The position numbers and the translations under genes are program-made. This document shows positions 5,434-16,267 of a stretch of 27,267 nt of DNA, piece after piece. The stretch comes from a virus, in IMG/VR virus record IMGVR_UViG_3300031566_000303, positions 1-27,267 of that record; one strand, 5' to 3'. The number at the start of each line of letters is the position of its first letter. Positions within the stretch are counted from its first letter, which is position 1. The notes beneath the pieces were generated by a model that ran no database searches, was not told where the DNA came from, and was given only the letters and a program-made list of their open reading frames with translations.

Positions 5434-8400
5434 TTATATAGTTAGTAACACTGTTTTCTTTTTAACGTCTGTTAATGGTTTTAGCATCAATTCATGTCTA
5501 TCTGTAAAACAAAACTTTAAAGCTCCTTTTAAATCAGGCACAAAGTATGGTGGTAACCGTGGTTCCTCATCGGGTATTGCAATTACTTCAAATTTATTTC
5601 CACCCTCTATAAATTTATCATAGTTTGATCTAATTTGTTCTCTTTGAACAGGATCAGATATTTTATCAAAATCTATTCCTCTAACTCGATACATATATGC
5701 TTTTGCGCCACGCTGATGGATATCATACATGATCTTATTCCACGCTAACATTGCTTTAACCCCCTGCGGGATTACTTTATAGTCTTTTAATGCTTTTCCG
5801 AATGTTACAGGTCTTGATATTCCTTTGTCACCTTCTATAATCATTTGAGTAAATTCTCTTTCTTTTCTAGCAATATATTCAAACGTTCTTGTGATATTAA
5901 ACTTTTCTTCTTTTAAAATCAAATGTGATAATTCTTCTAAAAACTCTTTTGATTTACTTGGGTAATCAGAACGTTTAATTTCAACACCCATATAATTAAT
6001 TTTATCAACATCTTTTCCTTCATTATTAACTACACGAATGGCGTATCGTTTCTTTGCTAGAAACAATCCACGAGAAATAATCAACTCATTTTTTAACTTT
6101 AATCTATTGAAGTCCATATCAACATTATGTTTCTTTACAACCTCAACAATTTTATCTTCATTTAAAAAGTTTTCTATCTGTTTACACCAGCCATTGATAT
6201 TCTTAATTGATGTTTCCTGTTTGAAATTACCAAACATACAGAAAATAGAATCTGTATCTCCAGTTATAATATAATCTCTGCTAACATTTGAAAATTTATA
6301 TATTTCAGGATGTTTATCAGGATCAGCAAACATTTGTGCTTTTGTAATCATTGGAGGTTGTACATATGGTTTCCCTGTATCCAAATGTCTCATAAAAGCA
6401 TCACCTTCAATGATTGATGTTTTCAATGCTTCTTGTCCAGATAACGTAATTGCTGCTGCCAATGATAAATCAAAAAATCTAAATGATTTATTAGCAACAA
6501 CACCATATAATGTATTCGCCAGAACCTTATAAACCAACTGTCTTGTATAATAGAATGTTTCAGCATCTTTATCTTTTGCTTCAATGGCATCAAACATCTG
6601 TCCTTTATATTTCGTTCTTGAGGACATAATCATATCAACAACTTCACCAAATACTGAAAACTCTTTTTTATGTGGTTGAAAGAAACATCCATTTATTGTA
6701 CATACTAATTTATCATCCTTGATCTTTTTAAGTAATTCTTTTGAAGATACACTCACCAGCTTCTTTTCAAACAATGGATCTATTATAACTTTAACTTTTT
6801 CTGGGAGTGCTTCAGGTCTATATGCTATATCGTAGCCAAGATGTGGGTCTTGTGTTTTCATTACAAAACTATTAATACCAATATTATATGTAATCATAAG
6901 ACTTGGGTACAGTGATGCAAAATCGAAATCTGTAATCCAATCATATGCACCAGGTATAGGTTCTAATACAAATGCACCTGGATATTTCTTTTTCTGAATA
7001 TGTGGATCAGAGTTCTTTGATGCTAAACCTTTTTCTTTCAGATATGACACCATCAATGAATCAATCTGACCGAATGATGATACAGAATCAAAGGACGTAT
7101 TACAGATAACCCTCAGCTCGTTTAACAGGTTAATATGAGCGAGTTTATTCTCAAGTTGTTCTAATAATTCAGTATCTCTAATGTTGTAATCAATAGTTGT
7201 ATTTAACATTTTCCAATACATTTCATTGAATGGTAATGGTAGATCAAGTTTGGTTACGCCAAGTTCATGCTGTGCAATAAACCCAAGTTTATAATTTTCC
7301 ATTTTTGTAAATGTGAATGTTTTATAAACAAAATCCTGATCTATTGCCACAATTCCTGGTATATGACAAATGTATCTTTGCCCATCAACATAAAACTCAT
7401 TGAAGTTTGTTAAGCTCGTTTGTCTAATTCCTATCTGTGGCAACCTTGTGAAAATATACTGTAAATCGAAACTTATAGCATTCCATCCACATATATAATC
7501 AGCATCCTGATTTTTAAAATCAGAAATAAACTCGTTCATCATTTTCTTTTCATTGGTAAATATTTTGTATGTAATACCATCTTTCTTTTCAATTGGTTCT
7601 GTTTTATTATCAACAACATAGCAAGTCTTAGCGCCGTTGAAAATTGTGGTCAGCATGTTTATTGGAAACTTTGCTTCTGTTGGGGTTGGAAACACTCTTG
7701 ACTTTCCCGTGTCAACTTCAATATCAAAAAACATAATATTTGAATGTGTTTTAGATGGTTCACCTTTACTATAATGATAATAATCCATGGCATGTTTTGC
7801 TGTTATTTTAACATCGCCTTCGTATGTGATATCCGGGTCTAAATTAGATCTGTCTTTATAATGAACCGATATTTGATTAAGTTGCTCATATGACAAAATC
7901 TTTTTGGCGGGAACTCCTTCTGGAACTTGATAACAAACATACTCATCTGTTTCTTTATGAATTATTTTATTGTTATCTTTATCTCTAAACATATATAATA
8001 CCTGTTGACTTTTACTTAAAAATTGAACGTCAACAAGTCTATAATCTTCTGTATAATATTTTTCGGGAATTCTATATCTATGAATACCATGTCCAATTGA
8101 TTTTGCATGAACGTCTGTTTTAATTTCCTTTTTACCAGTCATCATTGAAGCTATTTTGTTCATAGCATCTTCGTACTTTGGCTCCCATAAATTTAAATTT
8201 CTATTAACAAATGATGGGTGAACGATAACAATTGTTTTATATCCATCCCATTCAACAACATTCCCATGTAATTTTGTAATGCCTGATTTTGCAATTCCAA
8301 ATGCTGACATTGGACTTGTACCCATAAGCACAACAAGTTTTGGATTACATGATCTAATCAGAGACATACAATTAATTTTGCACATATCAATAACATCATC

Positions 8401-8728: not shown

Positions 8729-8777
8729 CTATTTATAATAGAAACATCCATATACAAATTTCATTTATAATACACCT

Positions 8778-8800
8778 ATCTATATATATTAATTACTGAA
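8778..8800 (+). promoter_or_regulatory. Copy 1 of an exact 23-bp repeat, likely rightward phage promoter
   Basis: This sequence ends in TATATATATTAATTACTGAA and is identical to 12843-12865. Both copies sit in divergent intergenic regions, in the same orientation, ahead of the first rightward transcript. Here it lies 64 bases before the start of the DnaJ-type zinc-finger gene at 8865. An AT-rich core followed by a conserved ACTGAA is compatible with a promoter for a phage or phage-modified polymerase. A protein-binding site is an alternative. Confidence 0.5.
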
Positions 8801-11890: not shown

Positions 11891-12049
11891 TTAGTCTATT
11901 AATTTAGATAATTGTTTTGTATCCTCAATTTGTTTCTTCAATATATCAACTACTGCATACTCAACAAAAAAATTTATTTCCTTTTCGGAAAACTCACATT
12001 CTATTGTGCAAAAACCATCTTTGGCGTCATGAACTTTTAAGACTTTCAT
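11891..12049 (-). CDS. Small acidic protein, 52 residues
   Basis: A short frame reads MKVLKVHDAKDGFCTIECEF and continues to a lysine- and glutamate-rich helix ending KLID. It starts inside the last codons of the membrane-protein gene (12027-12269), has GGGAGAG upstream, and fills an otherwise empty gap in a tightly packed operon. These context points support it despite its size. Function unknown. Confidence 0.58.
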   Translation of the reverse strand: MKVLKVHDAKDGFCTIECEFSEKEINFFVEYAVVDILKKQIEDTKQLSKLID

Positions 12050-12269
12050 TTTCACTCTCCCATTTAATAAAGTTTATTAAAGAAAATATAAAAAGAACTA
12101 TCATTTGAAATAACAAAAACCAGTATTGCTCATAATAGAATATAATAACTTGTAAAACATAACTTGGTAAAAACACTAACCAACCATAACTATTTTTATT
12201 TCTCAACATATACAAAGCGATACAGGTTAGTATAAAAGCACCCCCTCCAAGTATATTTAAAAAATCCAT
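12027..12269 (-). CDS. Small three-helix membrane protein
   Basis: The 80-residue product is almost wholly hydrophobic, with about three membrane spans (near 5-20, 28-46 and 50-68) and a charged C-terminus (KWESENESLKSS). The size and topology recall half-transporters such as SemiSWEET, and the aromatic spacing recalls one segment of PnuC, but no diagnostic motif is visible. It overlaps the PIG-L-like gene by 13 bases. Confidence 0.65.
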   Translation of the reverse strand: MDFLNILGGGAFILTCIALYMLRNKNSYGWLVFLPSYVLQVIIFYYEQYWFLLFQMIVLFIFSLINFIKWESENESLKSS

Positions 12270-12763: not shown

Positions 12764-12842
12764 GCAAAATCTCCTTTTTATTTATTTGTTACCGTCAATA
12801 AAAAATTTGTCTCAACATTATGTTCTCATTTTTATCATGCTC

Positions 12843-12865
12843 ATCTATATATATTAATTACTGAA
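12843..12865 (+). promoter_or_regulatory. Copy 2 of the 23-bp repeat, likely rightward promoter
   Basis: This is identical to 8778-8800 and in the same orientation. It lies 12 bases upstream of the closing stem of the structured segment at 12878-13211, so transcription starting just after the repeat would begin at or near the base of that stem. The region from 12764 to 12842 is otherwise AT-rich leader for the leftward operon. Confidence 0.5.
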
Positions 12866-12877
12866 TGGGAAAGTTTT

Positions 12878-13211
12878 GGTTTAAATTAGATGGGGTTTTC
12901 CAGTTTGTAAACCCAGCCGATCAACTGGATTTTCAGTATCGATAGTTAATTCTGGCTCCTTGGCGCGCCGCCGGGAAGATAACTTAGATATTCGAGAAGA
13001 TCAACTATAGCCAACGAACAGGTTACAGCACCTGGTGGTCTAGAACACAAAGCTGTAAACGGTATGGTTCATATTTCGCCACAGGGCGGGCCATTTTCAA
13101 ATCGCGCTCGCCCATCGAGGAACAGTCCTCCGGCGCCCAAGCAGACCGCAGCCAAGAAGAAATTGCTCCGGATAGCTTTTTTGAACAATCCGTTCCCCAT
13201 CTAATTTAACC
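12878..13211 (+). ncRNA. Large structured segment, candidate non-coding RNA
   Basis: No frame of useful length covers these 334 bases, and they are clearly richer in G and C than the flanks. The ends form a long stem: GGTTTAAATTAGATGGGG at 12878-12895 pairs with 13195-13211 (17 pairs, one bulged T). Inside are further local helices: TTACAGC with GCTGTAA (near 13023 and 13052), GGGCG with CGCCC (near 13084 and 13108), GAGGA-ACAG-TCCTC (near 13117), CGGAT with ATCCG (near 13169 and 13187), and a long-range CTTGGCGC with GCGCCCAAG. It does not show the conserved cores of tmRNA, RNase P RNA or group I introns. It could be a free RNA or a long leader for the gene at 13245. Confidence 0.65.
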
Positions 13212-13244
13212 CATTCATTTAATATTTTAGAAAGGAGGAATAGT

Positions 13245-13562
13245 TTGGATTTCAAGAATAGGGTACAGCTACAAAGTAGAGATGAGTTAATTTCTGGTCA
13301 GTTATTTTTTCGCCAAATGGGAAAAGCAATGGAACTTGATATGTCACATAGAAATCTTTTTGCAGCTGTTGGGTTGGTTGCACTTCCTCAAAAACATTTT
13401 TCTATTAAAACAGAATATCAATATACATTCGCTGGATGGGAAGATCTTATTGAGGGAGGTCTTATCTTAGGAATTGATCCCACAACAGGAAAAAACTTAA
13501 AAAAAATGGCTCGGGGTGATAATATTGGGTCATTATTAACCAAACCTATTTGGAGGATTTAA
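13245..13562 (+). CDS. Unrecognised 105-residue protein
   Basis: A TTG start at 13245 follows AAAGGAGG. The product begins MDFKNRVQLQSRDELISGQL and contains an LFAAVGLVALP stretch; no family is recognised. It lies between the structured segment and the nicotinate phosphoribosyltransferase gene, ending two bases before the latter, so the two are likely co-transcribed and perhaps functionally linked. Confidence 0.62.
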   Translation: MDFKNRVQLQSRDELISGQLFFRQMGKAMELDMSHRNLFAAVGLVALPQKHFSIKTEYQYTFAGWEDLIEGGLILGIDPTTGKNLKKMARGDNIGSLLTKPIWRI

Positions 13563-13563
13563 T

Positions 13564-14721
13564 ATGACAGGTATGATAAGAAGTATATTAGATAATGATC
13601 AATATAAGTTCACTATGCAACAGGCATTATTAAAATTGGGATTTGCTTCAGTTCCAGTTGTATATAAATTTAAATGTCGAACCAAAGGTATTAATTTTTC
13701 AAAATCTTTTCACCACATTATACATCAAATTGAGTGTCTAAAAGATTTATCAATTTCAGAACAAGAGATAGAATTTATGAAGTCTCTTCGTTATTTTTCT
13801 GATGAATATCTATGTTTCTTAAAACAGTTTCGATTTGATCCCGATCATGTCGATATATTGTTGAGTAAAGGTGAATTAAACATTACCATTTCAGGACCAT
13901 GGTTTCACACTATTCTATTTGAAGTCCCCATATTAGCAATTGTTAGTGAGTCATATAGACCTGATGGAAACTTTCAATATGCTGATAACAAACTTCATAA
14001 AAAAATTAAGAATTTACATTATGCTCCGGCATTTAAATTTATGGAATTTGGTACTCGTAGAAGAAAATCATTCGATTGGCAACATCATGTTGTTAATACA
14101 TGTAAGAAGCAAGTTCCCAATAACTTCATTGGGACAAGCAATTTGTTATTAGCAATGACAAGTAAATGCAAACCTATGGGAACCATGGCACATGAATGGT
14201 TACAAGCTCATCAACAACTTGGTTATCGTGTGGGTGAAAGTCAAAAGATGGCATTTGAAAATTGGATTAAAGTATATAGAGGAGACTTGGGAATCGCTTT
14301 GTCAGATGTAATCAATACAGATGCATTCTTAAGAGACTTTGACGATCCTCTTTTCTATAAACTTTTTGATGGGGTGAGAGAAGACTCAGAACCCGACCCA
14401 ATTACATTCGGTCATCGAATAATCAATTTCTATTATAGAAGAAAGATAGATCCTCTTACAAAAACCATTGTATTTAGCAATGGATTGACATTTGAACAGG
14501 CGTCAAAACTATATGATGAGTTTCATCGCTTGATAGGTGTCTCGTTTGGCATTGGAACAAATCTCACTAACGATTGGGAATACGACCCATTGAATATCGT
14601 TATCAAGATGGTTTCTTGCAATGGAGAGCCAGTAGCGAAAATATCAAATTCACCTGGCAAAGGTATGTGTGAAAGTCCTGAGTTTGTTTCTTATCTAAAA
14701 TCAGTTTATAAAATTGACTAG
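13564..14721 (+). CDS. pncB: Nicotinate phosphoribosyltransferase
   Basis: The 385-residue product matches PncB along its length: ILDNDQYKFTMQQALL at the N-terminus, EFGTRRRKSF at 161-170, GTSNLLLA at 190-197, GTMAHEW with the His at 210 (the residue phosphorylated in bacterial PncB), SDVINTDAFLRDF, FSNGLTFEQA, SFGIGTNLTND and KMVSCNGEPVAKISNSPGK. The enzyme makes nicotinate mononucleotide from nicotinate and PRPP, with ATP, in the Preiss-Handler route to NAD. In the typical SDTFGTDAF motif the sequence here is SDVINTDAF. GGAGG precedes the ATG. The NAD synthetase gene follows after two tRNAs and one small gene; the adenylyltransferase step between them is not encoded in the window. Confidence 0.95.
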   Translation: MTGMIRSILDNDQYKFTMQQALLKLGFASVPVVYKFKCRTKGINFSKSFHHIIHQIECLKDLSISEQEIEFMKSLRYFSDEYLCFLKQFRFDPDHVDILLSKGELNITISGPWFHTILFEVPILAIVSESYRPDGNFQYADNKLHKKIKNLHYAPAFKFMEFGTRRRKSFDWQHHVVNTCKKQVPNNFIGTSNLLLAMTSKCKPMGTMAHEWLQAHQQLGYRVGESQKMAFENWIKVYRGDLGIALSDVINTDAFLRDFDDPLFYKLFDGVREDSEPDPITFGHRIINFYYRRKIDPLTKTIVFSNGLTFEQASKLYDEFHRLIGVSFGIGTNLTNDWEYDPLNIVIKMVSCNGEPVAKISNSPGKGMCESPEFVSYLKSVYKID

Positions 14722-14996: not shown

Positions 14997-15410
14997 ATGA
15001 GCGAAGAATTTATTCAATATAGATTTCCATGTAATACATGCCTTGTTCAAGCTGCTTGTCGTGATCGTGATCGGATGTCTATTAAAGATACAAAAATTAA
15101 TCATGAAATTTCTTCATTGGGTGTTCCATTATTTAAAGATAAAGATAAAAGCTGGCATAAAGGTCTTTTAGAATGTATGTTGAATCTTCAAAAACAGATA
15201 ATGGATAAAGTGTCCAGAACTGAGGGTAAAGAAGATTTTAATAAACAGGAAACTGATAGATTGCCTATGCAGTATATCTATTTGATGATTGATATGTCAC
15301 AAATTTTATGTCATATGGCTAATTCAACAAGTTGGAGAGAAGGTGAACTATTTGAATTTGATCGAATTGAAATTAAGCGAAGATTAACTCGACTGACGAG
15401 GTGGTTATGA
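14997..15410 (+). CDS. Unrecognised protein with N-terminal CxxCLV cysteine motif
   Basis: The 137-residue product starts at 14997, after AAAGGATG. Near the N-terminus it reads PCNTCLVQAACRDRDRM, a motif shared in form with the small membrane proteins at 17047-17307 and 26089-26376. The remainder is charged and helical. The stop overlaps the start of the NAD synthetase gene (ATGA), which implies coupled translation and perhaps a linked role. No family recognised. Confidence 0.68.
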   Translation: MSEEFIQYRFPCNTCLVQAACRDRDRMSIKDTKINHEISSLGVPLFKDKDKSWHKGLLECMLNLQKQIMDKVSRTEGKEDFNKQETDRLPMQYIYLMIDMSQILCHMANSTSWREGELFEFDRIEIKRRLTRLTRWL

Positions 15411-16267
15411 TATACTTACCAAGTATGAATCCAGAAGTAGTTTCTAAAGAAATACAGAAGTTTATTTTAAACACAGTTAACAAACATAAAAAAAGTGGGG
15501 TTGTTCTTGGTCTTTCTGGTGGGATAGATTCTTCAGTTGTAGCTGTTCTTTGTGCTAAAGCATTTATGGGAACTACATATAATGTAGTTGGTTATTATCT
15601 TCCGCATGGCGTTGAAGATGGAAGTAGACTTTTTGTTAATCATCTCATAGATACTTTTCCTAGTATAAACTATCGACTAGTATCAATATCTGATCAATGC
15701 TTATCTCATGTAGATGTGGTAGAAGCTTATTCTTCACCATTAACTAATTATCAAAAAGGGAATGTTTACTCAAGAGTTAGAGCGAATGTTTTATCAACGT
15801 TCGCTGAAAAGGAAAATAAAGTTCTGTCGGGTACAGGAAATCGTGATGAAGATTATGGAGTTGGATATTACACGATGTTTGGAGATGGTGCAGTTCACAT
15901 GAATCCCATAGGATGTCTTTCAAAACGACTGGTGTATCAAATGGCAGAATATTTAGAAATACCAAAATCAATTATTGAAAGAACTCCTACAGCTGGATTA
16001 GAACCAAACCAAACAGATTTTGATGATCTTGGTTATGAATATAGTACAGTTGAAATTATCATGGAAGCTCTCAATCAAGGATCTAATGCGGCCAATATAA
16101 TTGAAATACTTGAATCGAAGATAATTATATTTTCTTATGATAAATTCACAAGTATGGCAGATATAGTTCAAGATGTATTATCAAGACATCTTATTGCTTT
16201 ACAGAAAAGCGAAATCATCAACCCACCAATTCCAAAAGTAACCTTACATTATGGTGATCTAAAATAG
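15407..16267 (+). CDS. nadE: NH3-dependent NAD+ synthetase
   Basis: The 286-residue product has LGLSGGIDSSVVAVL (about 34-48), the ATP-pyrophosphatase P-loop, then GTGNRDEDYGVGYYTMFGDG and TAGLEPNQTDFDDLGYEY, all diagnostic of NadE. It converts nicotinate adenine dinucleotide to NAD with ATP and ammonia. There is no glutaminase domain, as in the short bacterial form of about 275 residues. I chose the ATG at 15407 over the GTG at 15401 because it overlaps the previous stop and follows GAGGTGG. With PncB upstream it forms two of the three Preiss-Handler steps. Confidence 0.95.
   Translation: MIYLPSMNPEVVSKEIQKFILNTVNKHKKSGVVLGLSGGIDSSVVAVLCAKAFMGTTYNVVGYYLPHGVEDGSRLFVNHLIDTFPSINYRLVSISDQCLSHVDVVEAYSSPLTNYQKGNVYSRVRANVLSTFAEKENKVLSGTGNRDEDYGVGYYTMFGDGAVHMNPIGCLSKRLVYQMAEYLEIPKSIIERTPTAGLEPNQTDFDDLGYEYSTVEIIMEALNQGSNAANIIEILESKIIIFSYDKFTSMADIVQDVLSRHLIALQKSEIINPPIPKVTLHYGDLK

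Follow-up and report, generated by a model that had tools for sequence, protein, structure and literature searches.

What does a GC-rich segment without a gene encode in the genome of a large, uncultured phage? The segment in question lies on the + strand of the 27,267-nt stretch of DNA analysed here, which we call the window (Table 1). An earlier note, made from the letters alone, had described 334 nt of GC-richer sequence covered by no gene, its ends joined in a 17-bp stem that has a single bulge, and had interpreted it as a phage RNA. Our analysis confirmed its coordinates, stem, bulge, and composition: the GC fraction is 0.47-0.52 inside the segment and 0.26-0.35 outside it, in a phage of about 32% GC overall, and the closing stem, P1, pairs 17 bp with a single bulged U. 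The longest perfect run in P1 is 15 bp, against a maximum of 13 bp (mean 5.1) for any stem joining the ends in 3000 dinucleotide shuffles of the region. The fold is also better than dinucleotide shuffles, both for the region with its flanks (12866-13245; -110 kcal/mol, z -2.5, 1 of 100 shuffles equally good) and for the exact segment (-106.8 kcal/mol, z -4.0, none of 300). Because the reverse strand of the segment also reaches a z of -3.3, folding energy alone does not decide the strand; the + strand was chosen on the direction of the promoter and on G-U pairs in the relatives described below, where the third RNA (in P10) and the short relative (in P1) have pairs that suit the + strand only. 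The segment contains no + strand ORF of at least 50 aa, and a six-frame comparison with two relatives revealed no open frame in common, so that the statement that no gene covers it also stands. The single local match in that comparison, on the minus strand, was rejected as coding because both sequences contain stop codons.

The segment follows a repeated sequence that the earlier note had considered promoter-like and had placed 12 bases before the stem. This spacing is correct, with copies of the element at 8761-8800 and 12826-12865, and the pattern CTATATATATTAATTA-N-TGAA is found in the window at 8780 and 12845. Of 45 related phage records, 21 contain the exact 14-mer CTATATATATTAAT, with 92 copies in all, and a reversed control pattern gave no match; nearly all copies are on one strand in most genomes, and they precede genes or RNAs in the relatives examined. 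In record G008, a tmRNA with the tag ADNLAFAAADDYATAALAA begins 25-30 nt behind a copy. The suggestion thus holds for a genuine, strand-biased class of element, and its position and recurrence make it very likely that this is a promoter of the phage group, one that would also serve structured RNAs. A sigma-70 promoter was tested at the window locus and rejected. The G008 tmRNA itself (L264:106-480; G008:150220-150930) scores 132.6 bits and is carried by a 244-kb contig related to the window's phage. Other leaders were seen behind the same promoter. One, of about 195 nt (L192:85-280; record G009:108134-108840), is RNA-like with a 17-bp closing stem (z -2.8) and lacks the core of the family described here; another is non-coding with long hairpins (L239 ~77-330; record G044:27190-27900; z -5.2), and a further one has strong hairpins 160 nt behind the promoter (L245; record G003:60430-61150; z -3.6). 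Neither of the last two has an Rfam match at E up to 0.5.

To place the segment among related phages, we gathered orthologous sites via the neighbouring genes. The 248-kb phage contig 3300040801_004532, whose polymerase is 71% identical, has a GC-rich RNA of 356 nt at this site (L155:6925-7280), located between the promoter and a small gene and divergent from the same deacetylase-like gene as in the window. Both RNAs contain GGGGTTTTCC[A/G]GTTTGTAA and CTGTA[A/G]A[C/T]GGTATG. At 66% polymerase identity, the 223-kb contig 3300021511_000003 has a shorter segment at the orthologous site (L003 ~5800-5965) that retains P1-like ends, with a G-U-rich P1, as well as GGGGNNUUCC and AGAAUCCAUU. Its folding is no better than that of shuffles (z ~ -1) and P6 and P9 were not recognised, and we take it to be a relative that has been shortened or is decaying. 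In the closest phage, 3300009149_000276 (polymerase 87%), about 50 nt separate the promoter from the downstream gene, with no RNA between them, and the RNA is absent from 3300033151_000808 too. As it is present in more distant phages and absent from a nearer one, the distribution fits an old, dispensable element that would have been lost at times. The closest relative has its nicotinate phosphoribosyltransferase broken into two frames that overlap (L006:5995-7153), through either a frameshift or an assembly error.

A third full-length member emerged when the regions that follow promoter copies in related records were scanned for closing stems. In record G009 (3300009488_000018, 124 kb), this RNA of about 347 nt (L187:138-484) follows a copy of the promoter, has a tRNA next to it, and is itself followed by a gene; it folds better than all of 300 shuffles (z -6.75) and has the same core as the window RNA at a non-orthologous site. 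Wider searches were less productive. With the segment, the 356-nt homologue, and the third RNA as queries, blastn detected no homologue in 50,697 phage records, nor in 72,556 plasmids with the 356-nt homologue, and a blastn match in LR756500.1 was rejected because it lies in AT-rich sequence that has no relation to the RNA. Scanning viral contigs for exact motifs returned only the 248-kb contig again, the promoter pattern also recovering the known 223-kb contig; the same kind of scan of genome contigs gave chance matches only, a search with the 105-aa neighbour gene found only the two contigs already known, and motif searches in 90 related records yielded no fourth full-length member.

Table 1. 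Positions in the window of the RNA, its helices, and the adjoining elements.
Feature	Position	Strand	Remarks
Promoter-class element CTATATATATTAATTACTGAA (very likely a promoter)	12845..12865	+	Starts 33 nt before the stem; recurs in related records
Second copy of the element	8780-8800	+	Precedes another + strand gene
Structured RNA, 334 nt	12878..13211	+	Folding z -2.5/-4.0; core with compensatory changes in two relatives
P1, 5' strand	12878..12895	+	9 of 13 core P1 pairs changed on both sides among three sequences
P1, 3' strand	13195..13211	+	Closing stem; fold and three-sequence core
P2 hairpin	12899..12929	+	12899-12905 / 12923-12929
P6 hairpin	13025..13056	+	13025-13029 / 13052-13056; inner pairs 13035-13037 / 13046-13048
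P9, 5' strand AACGG	13058..13062	+	Conserved UAUG follows
P10 and the peripheral domain it closes	13067..13186	+	P10 = 13067-13071 / 13182-13186
P7 hairpin, inside the P10 domain	13084-13091 / 13106-13113	+	
P9, 3' strand CCGUU	13190..13194	+	Conserved AAU before; directly abuts P1
Ribosome-binding site and 105-aa gene of unknown family	13231..13562	+	Read from the same promoter

The three full-length RNAs have P1, P2, P6, P9, and P10 in common. P2 comes after a short U-rich linker in all of them, and the conserved stretch GGGGUUUUCC[A/G]GUUUGUAA spans P1 into P2. The strands of P6 are ACAGC/GCUGU in the window, ACAGU/ACUGU in the 356-nt homologue, and ACUAU/AUAGU in the third RNA; a single A then separates P6 from P9, whose strands are AACGG/CCGUU, GAUGG/CCAUC, and AACGG/CCGUU in the same order. 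Next to P9 and P10, UAUG or UAGG faces AAU, P10 itself being GUUC/GAAC, CUGU/ACAG, and UUUC/GGGA, and the 3' strand of P9 directly abuts that of P1. Written as a family definition (P1 behind CTATATATATTAAT; P2 after a U linker; P6-A-P9-UAKG-P10...AAU-P9'-P1'), this arrangement was found in the window, L155:6925-7280, and L187:138-484. Pairing holds in 80 of the 81 cells (98.8%) of the spliced core of 62 columns, and 17 of the 27 pairs have changed on both sides and still pair, counts that lean towards the structure, as the alignment of three sequences, all metagenomic, was spliced by hand around it. Sliding the structure by 1-3 columns left 1-4 two-sided changes and 36-56% paired cells, and none of 500 shuffles was equally good in pairing and covariation. 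The closing stem predicted from the window alone is thus kept in its homologues with compensatory changes.

Individual folds agree with this core to differing degrees. The unconstrained minimum-energy fold of the window RNA has P2, P6, P9, and P10 in full and P1 minus its outermost bases, that of the third RNA has P1, P2, P9, and P10 with P6 at low probability, and that of the 356-nt homologue is without P6, P9, and P10, a fold including them costing 3.1 kcal/mol. A strict motif-and-stem descriptor matched the three RNAs only among all loci collected and nothing in reversed controls. The three also ranked top in a looser scan of 292 promoter leaders, where the first two scored 20 against 18 for the best shuffled control and the third was level with that control. 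A home-made program for simultaneous folding and alignment gave P1, P2, and P6 reproducibly and over-paired the remainder, and the core was therefore fixed by hand; no covariance model of the whole RNA was built, since its ~330 positions exceed the calibration limit and variable domains interrupt the core. A long-range helix P3, suggested by one homologue, was left out, being about 5-6 kcal/mol worse in the window. On this comparative evidence the segment is a real RNA, which supports its interpretation in the earlier note.

The position of the RNA in its transcript raises the question of whether it acts in cis, as a 5' leader whose fold would either stabilise the end of the transcript or respond to a ligand and regulate translation of the downstream genes. 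Every copy is placed after the promoter and before a ribosome-binding site, which follows together with a gene within about 50 nt, as a cis leader would likewise show. In the window, the ribosome-binding site with its gene starts some 20 nt after the stem and no intrinsic terminator separates the RNA from the 105-aa gene; the RNA therefore appears to be made as a leader, and a stand-alone form would need processing. A nicotinate phosphoribosyltransferase comes next in the short relative, and the window's operon has NAD-salvage genes, which could point to a ligand-controlled switch. However, the first gene differs in all four phages: the window has the 105-aa gene, the 248-kb contig a small ORF ahead of the 105-aa homologue, the 223-kb contig the phosphoribosyltransferase, and the 124-kb contig an unrelated ORF of 206 aa. 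The closest phage keeps the promoter and genes without the RNA, another relative also lacks it, no riboswitch model reaches its gathering score, and 334-356 nt with a core closed by P1 is large for a leader switch. Because of the varying first gene and the two relatives without the RNA, we favour a role in trans over the control of one gene, and we consider the cis-acting leader unlikely, if still worth bearing in mind.

The clean absence from the closest phage, the GC content unlike that of the surroundings, and the different genomic place in the third phage could also be explained by a mobile element or insertion, MITE-like or intron-like, with the stem as terminal inverted repeats and the empty site as the state before insertion. 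Yet the same site is occupied at only 71% polymerase identity, which fits descent plus loss, no target-site duplication is apparent by eye, the internal helices covary as RNA, the window has no group I or II intron match, and every copy lies directly behind the promoter. We therefore regard an insertion as improbable.

A much diverged tmRNA, RNase P RNA, GOLLD, or ROOL that present models miss would account for the position of a tmRNA behind the same promoter in relatives, and for ACAGAAUCC at the 3' end of the 356-nt homologue, beside P1, which we take by eye to resemble the last conserved stretch of RNase P RNA. Nevertheless, Rfam at gathering scores returned tRNAs only in the window, and cmscan to E=10 gave nothing credible for the segment, the 356-nt homologue, or the short relative. 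The third RNA, scanned to E=0.5, had only a fragment match over the upstream tRNA, outside the span of the RNA, and the helix order is unlike that of RNase P RNA, with the 5' strand of P9 coming late, after P6. ARAGORN found 12 tRNAs downstream in the window and no tmRNA. The earlier note had been unable to match the segment to tmRNA, RNase P RNA, 6S RNA, or group I introns; with no Rfam family matching it even at E=10, these are ruled out within the reach of the Rfam models, and a missed known class seems to us very improbable. Chance folding of a GC-rich spacer, for which one could cite the short relative that folds no better than shuffles and the reverse-strand z in the window, deserves almost no credence, as it is refuted by the compensatory changes and common core in three phages unless the homology calls are wrong.

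Our preferred reading, which we hold to be reasonably probable, is that the segment encodes a structured phage RNA acting in trans. The RNA would be dispensable and form the first part of an operon leader, from which it is probably released by processing. Transcription would start at the phage-specific AT-rich promoter just upstream, the RNA being the first element of an operon that continues with the 105-aa protein, the NAD-salvage genes, and the tRNA island. Its 5' and 3' parts pair as the long stem P1, on which the abutting P9 probably stacks, and the hairpins P2 and P6 and the variable P10 domain project from the core. Cleavage beside P1, probably by host nucleases, would free a compact, stable RNA from the leader, and the mRNA behind it would be translated from the ribosome-binding site that it carries. 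Most likely, the RNA would have an accessory part in translation or tRNA metabolism while the phage infects its host. We favour this level of action because the full-length copies all lie at tRNA islands, a frequent location of ROOL and GOLLD as well; any cellular target would be a guess.

Several other features of this neighbourhood were recorded. The window encodes a nicotinate phosphoribosyltransferase (13564-14721) and an NAD synthase (15401-16267) near the RNA, and a fragment at 12027-12269 resembles an NMN transporter, just below the Pfam cut-off. The tRNA island contains near-identical direct repeats of 36-70 nt (23903-23972/24107-24176, 26014-26082/26375-26443, and 19752-19787/19818-19853) that look like recent duplications of short stretches. 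In record 3300031566_000025, a tRNA array is immediately preceded by a GC-rich stretch (L113 ~2540-2340, minus strand) that appears to be non-coding and is possibly a further structured RNA.

The P6 loop raises a more speculative possibility. In the window, its apical loop GUCUAGAA holds the palindrome UCUAGA, and that of the 356-nt homologue holds UCCGGA, likewise a palindrome, so that the change keeps self-complementarity, as a kissing dimer would require; duplex energies were computed for both, and a palindrome is not obvious in the loop of the third RNA. It is a doubtful idea that the RNA forms dimers or multimers through kissing of this loop. If it did, it would be a new, small addition to the homo-oligomeric, RNA-only phage assemblies, or RNA cages, for which ROOL and GOLLD are the cases known to date, and it would belong to a phage clade in which one class of promoter serves several structured RNAs. 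ROOL and GOLLD are ornate RNAs of unknown function, and ROOL at least can be very abundant. Beside these two, a third family of half their size, with a clear promoter, a covarying core, pairs of phages with and without the RNA, and relatives in three phages, offers a tractable case, and the AT-rich promoter of this large-phage group, which appears to serve several structured RNAs including tmRNA, could be used to find more.

The RNA can be set against known classes of large structured RNA. RNase P RNA has a closing stem P1 that comes immediately after the 3' strand of a long-range helix, and it is marked by the conserved regions I-V and the P4 helix. The arrangement of P1 and P9 is similar, and one homologue has ACAGAAUCC, but the helices come in a different order and RNase P models have no match to E=10 in the segment or the 356-nt homologue. 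6S RNA is a long irregular hairpin of about 180-200 nt with a central bubble, whereas the 334-nt segment has a branched fold and no cmscan match to it. Group I and II introns have as their catalytic core P3-P7 or domain V, respectively; cmscan found neither in the window segment, and the 356-nt homologue has a weak, sub-threshold match to group II domain V (22.1 bits against a cut-off of 61). Like tmRNA, the window RNA would be stable, and in G008 the tmRNA is behind the same promoter class and is likewise followed by a gene, but the 334-nt RNA is without a tRNA-like T arm, a tag reading frame, or a 3' CCA (ARAGORN and cmscan negative). The ornate phage RNAs are the closest in setting, as all three full-length RNAs are at tRNA islands in phage genomes, with 12 tRNAs 1.6-13.7 kb downstream in the window and tRNAs adjoining the homologues. 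ROOL (Rumen-Originating, Ornate, Large), whose function is unknown, is an intricate RNA that phages encode, frequently close to tRNA islands; its monomers are joined by kissing loops, and the form studied by cryo-EM has 659 nt (PMC12286853). Our RNA is likewise a phage RNA near tRNA islands, but it has 334-356 nt and a core of its own. GOLLD, found at tRNA islands of phages and prophages, rises in expression during lysis and has a conserved 3' part and a more variable 5' part, many members exceeding 800 nt (PMC12286853). Part of the conserved core is likewise at the 3' end of the 334-nt RNA, but the ROOL and GOLLD models gave no match at gathering score in the window and none to E=10 in the segment or the 356-nt homologue. 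The family is thus new to Rfam, while the kind of RNA it belongs to, the ornate phage RNAs, is already known, and the best reading is that it would resemble GOLLD and ROOL in its manner of working, yet is not one of them.
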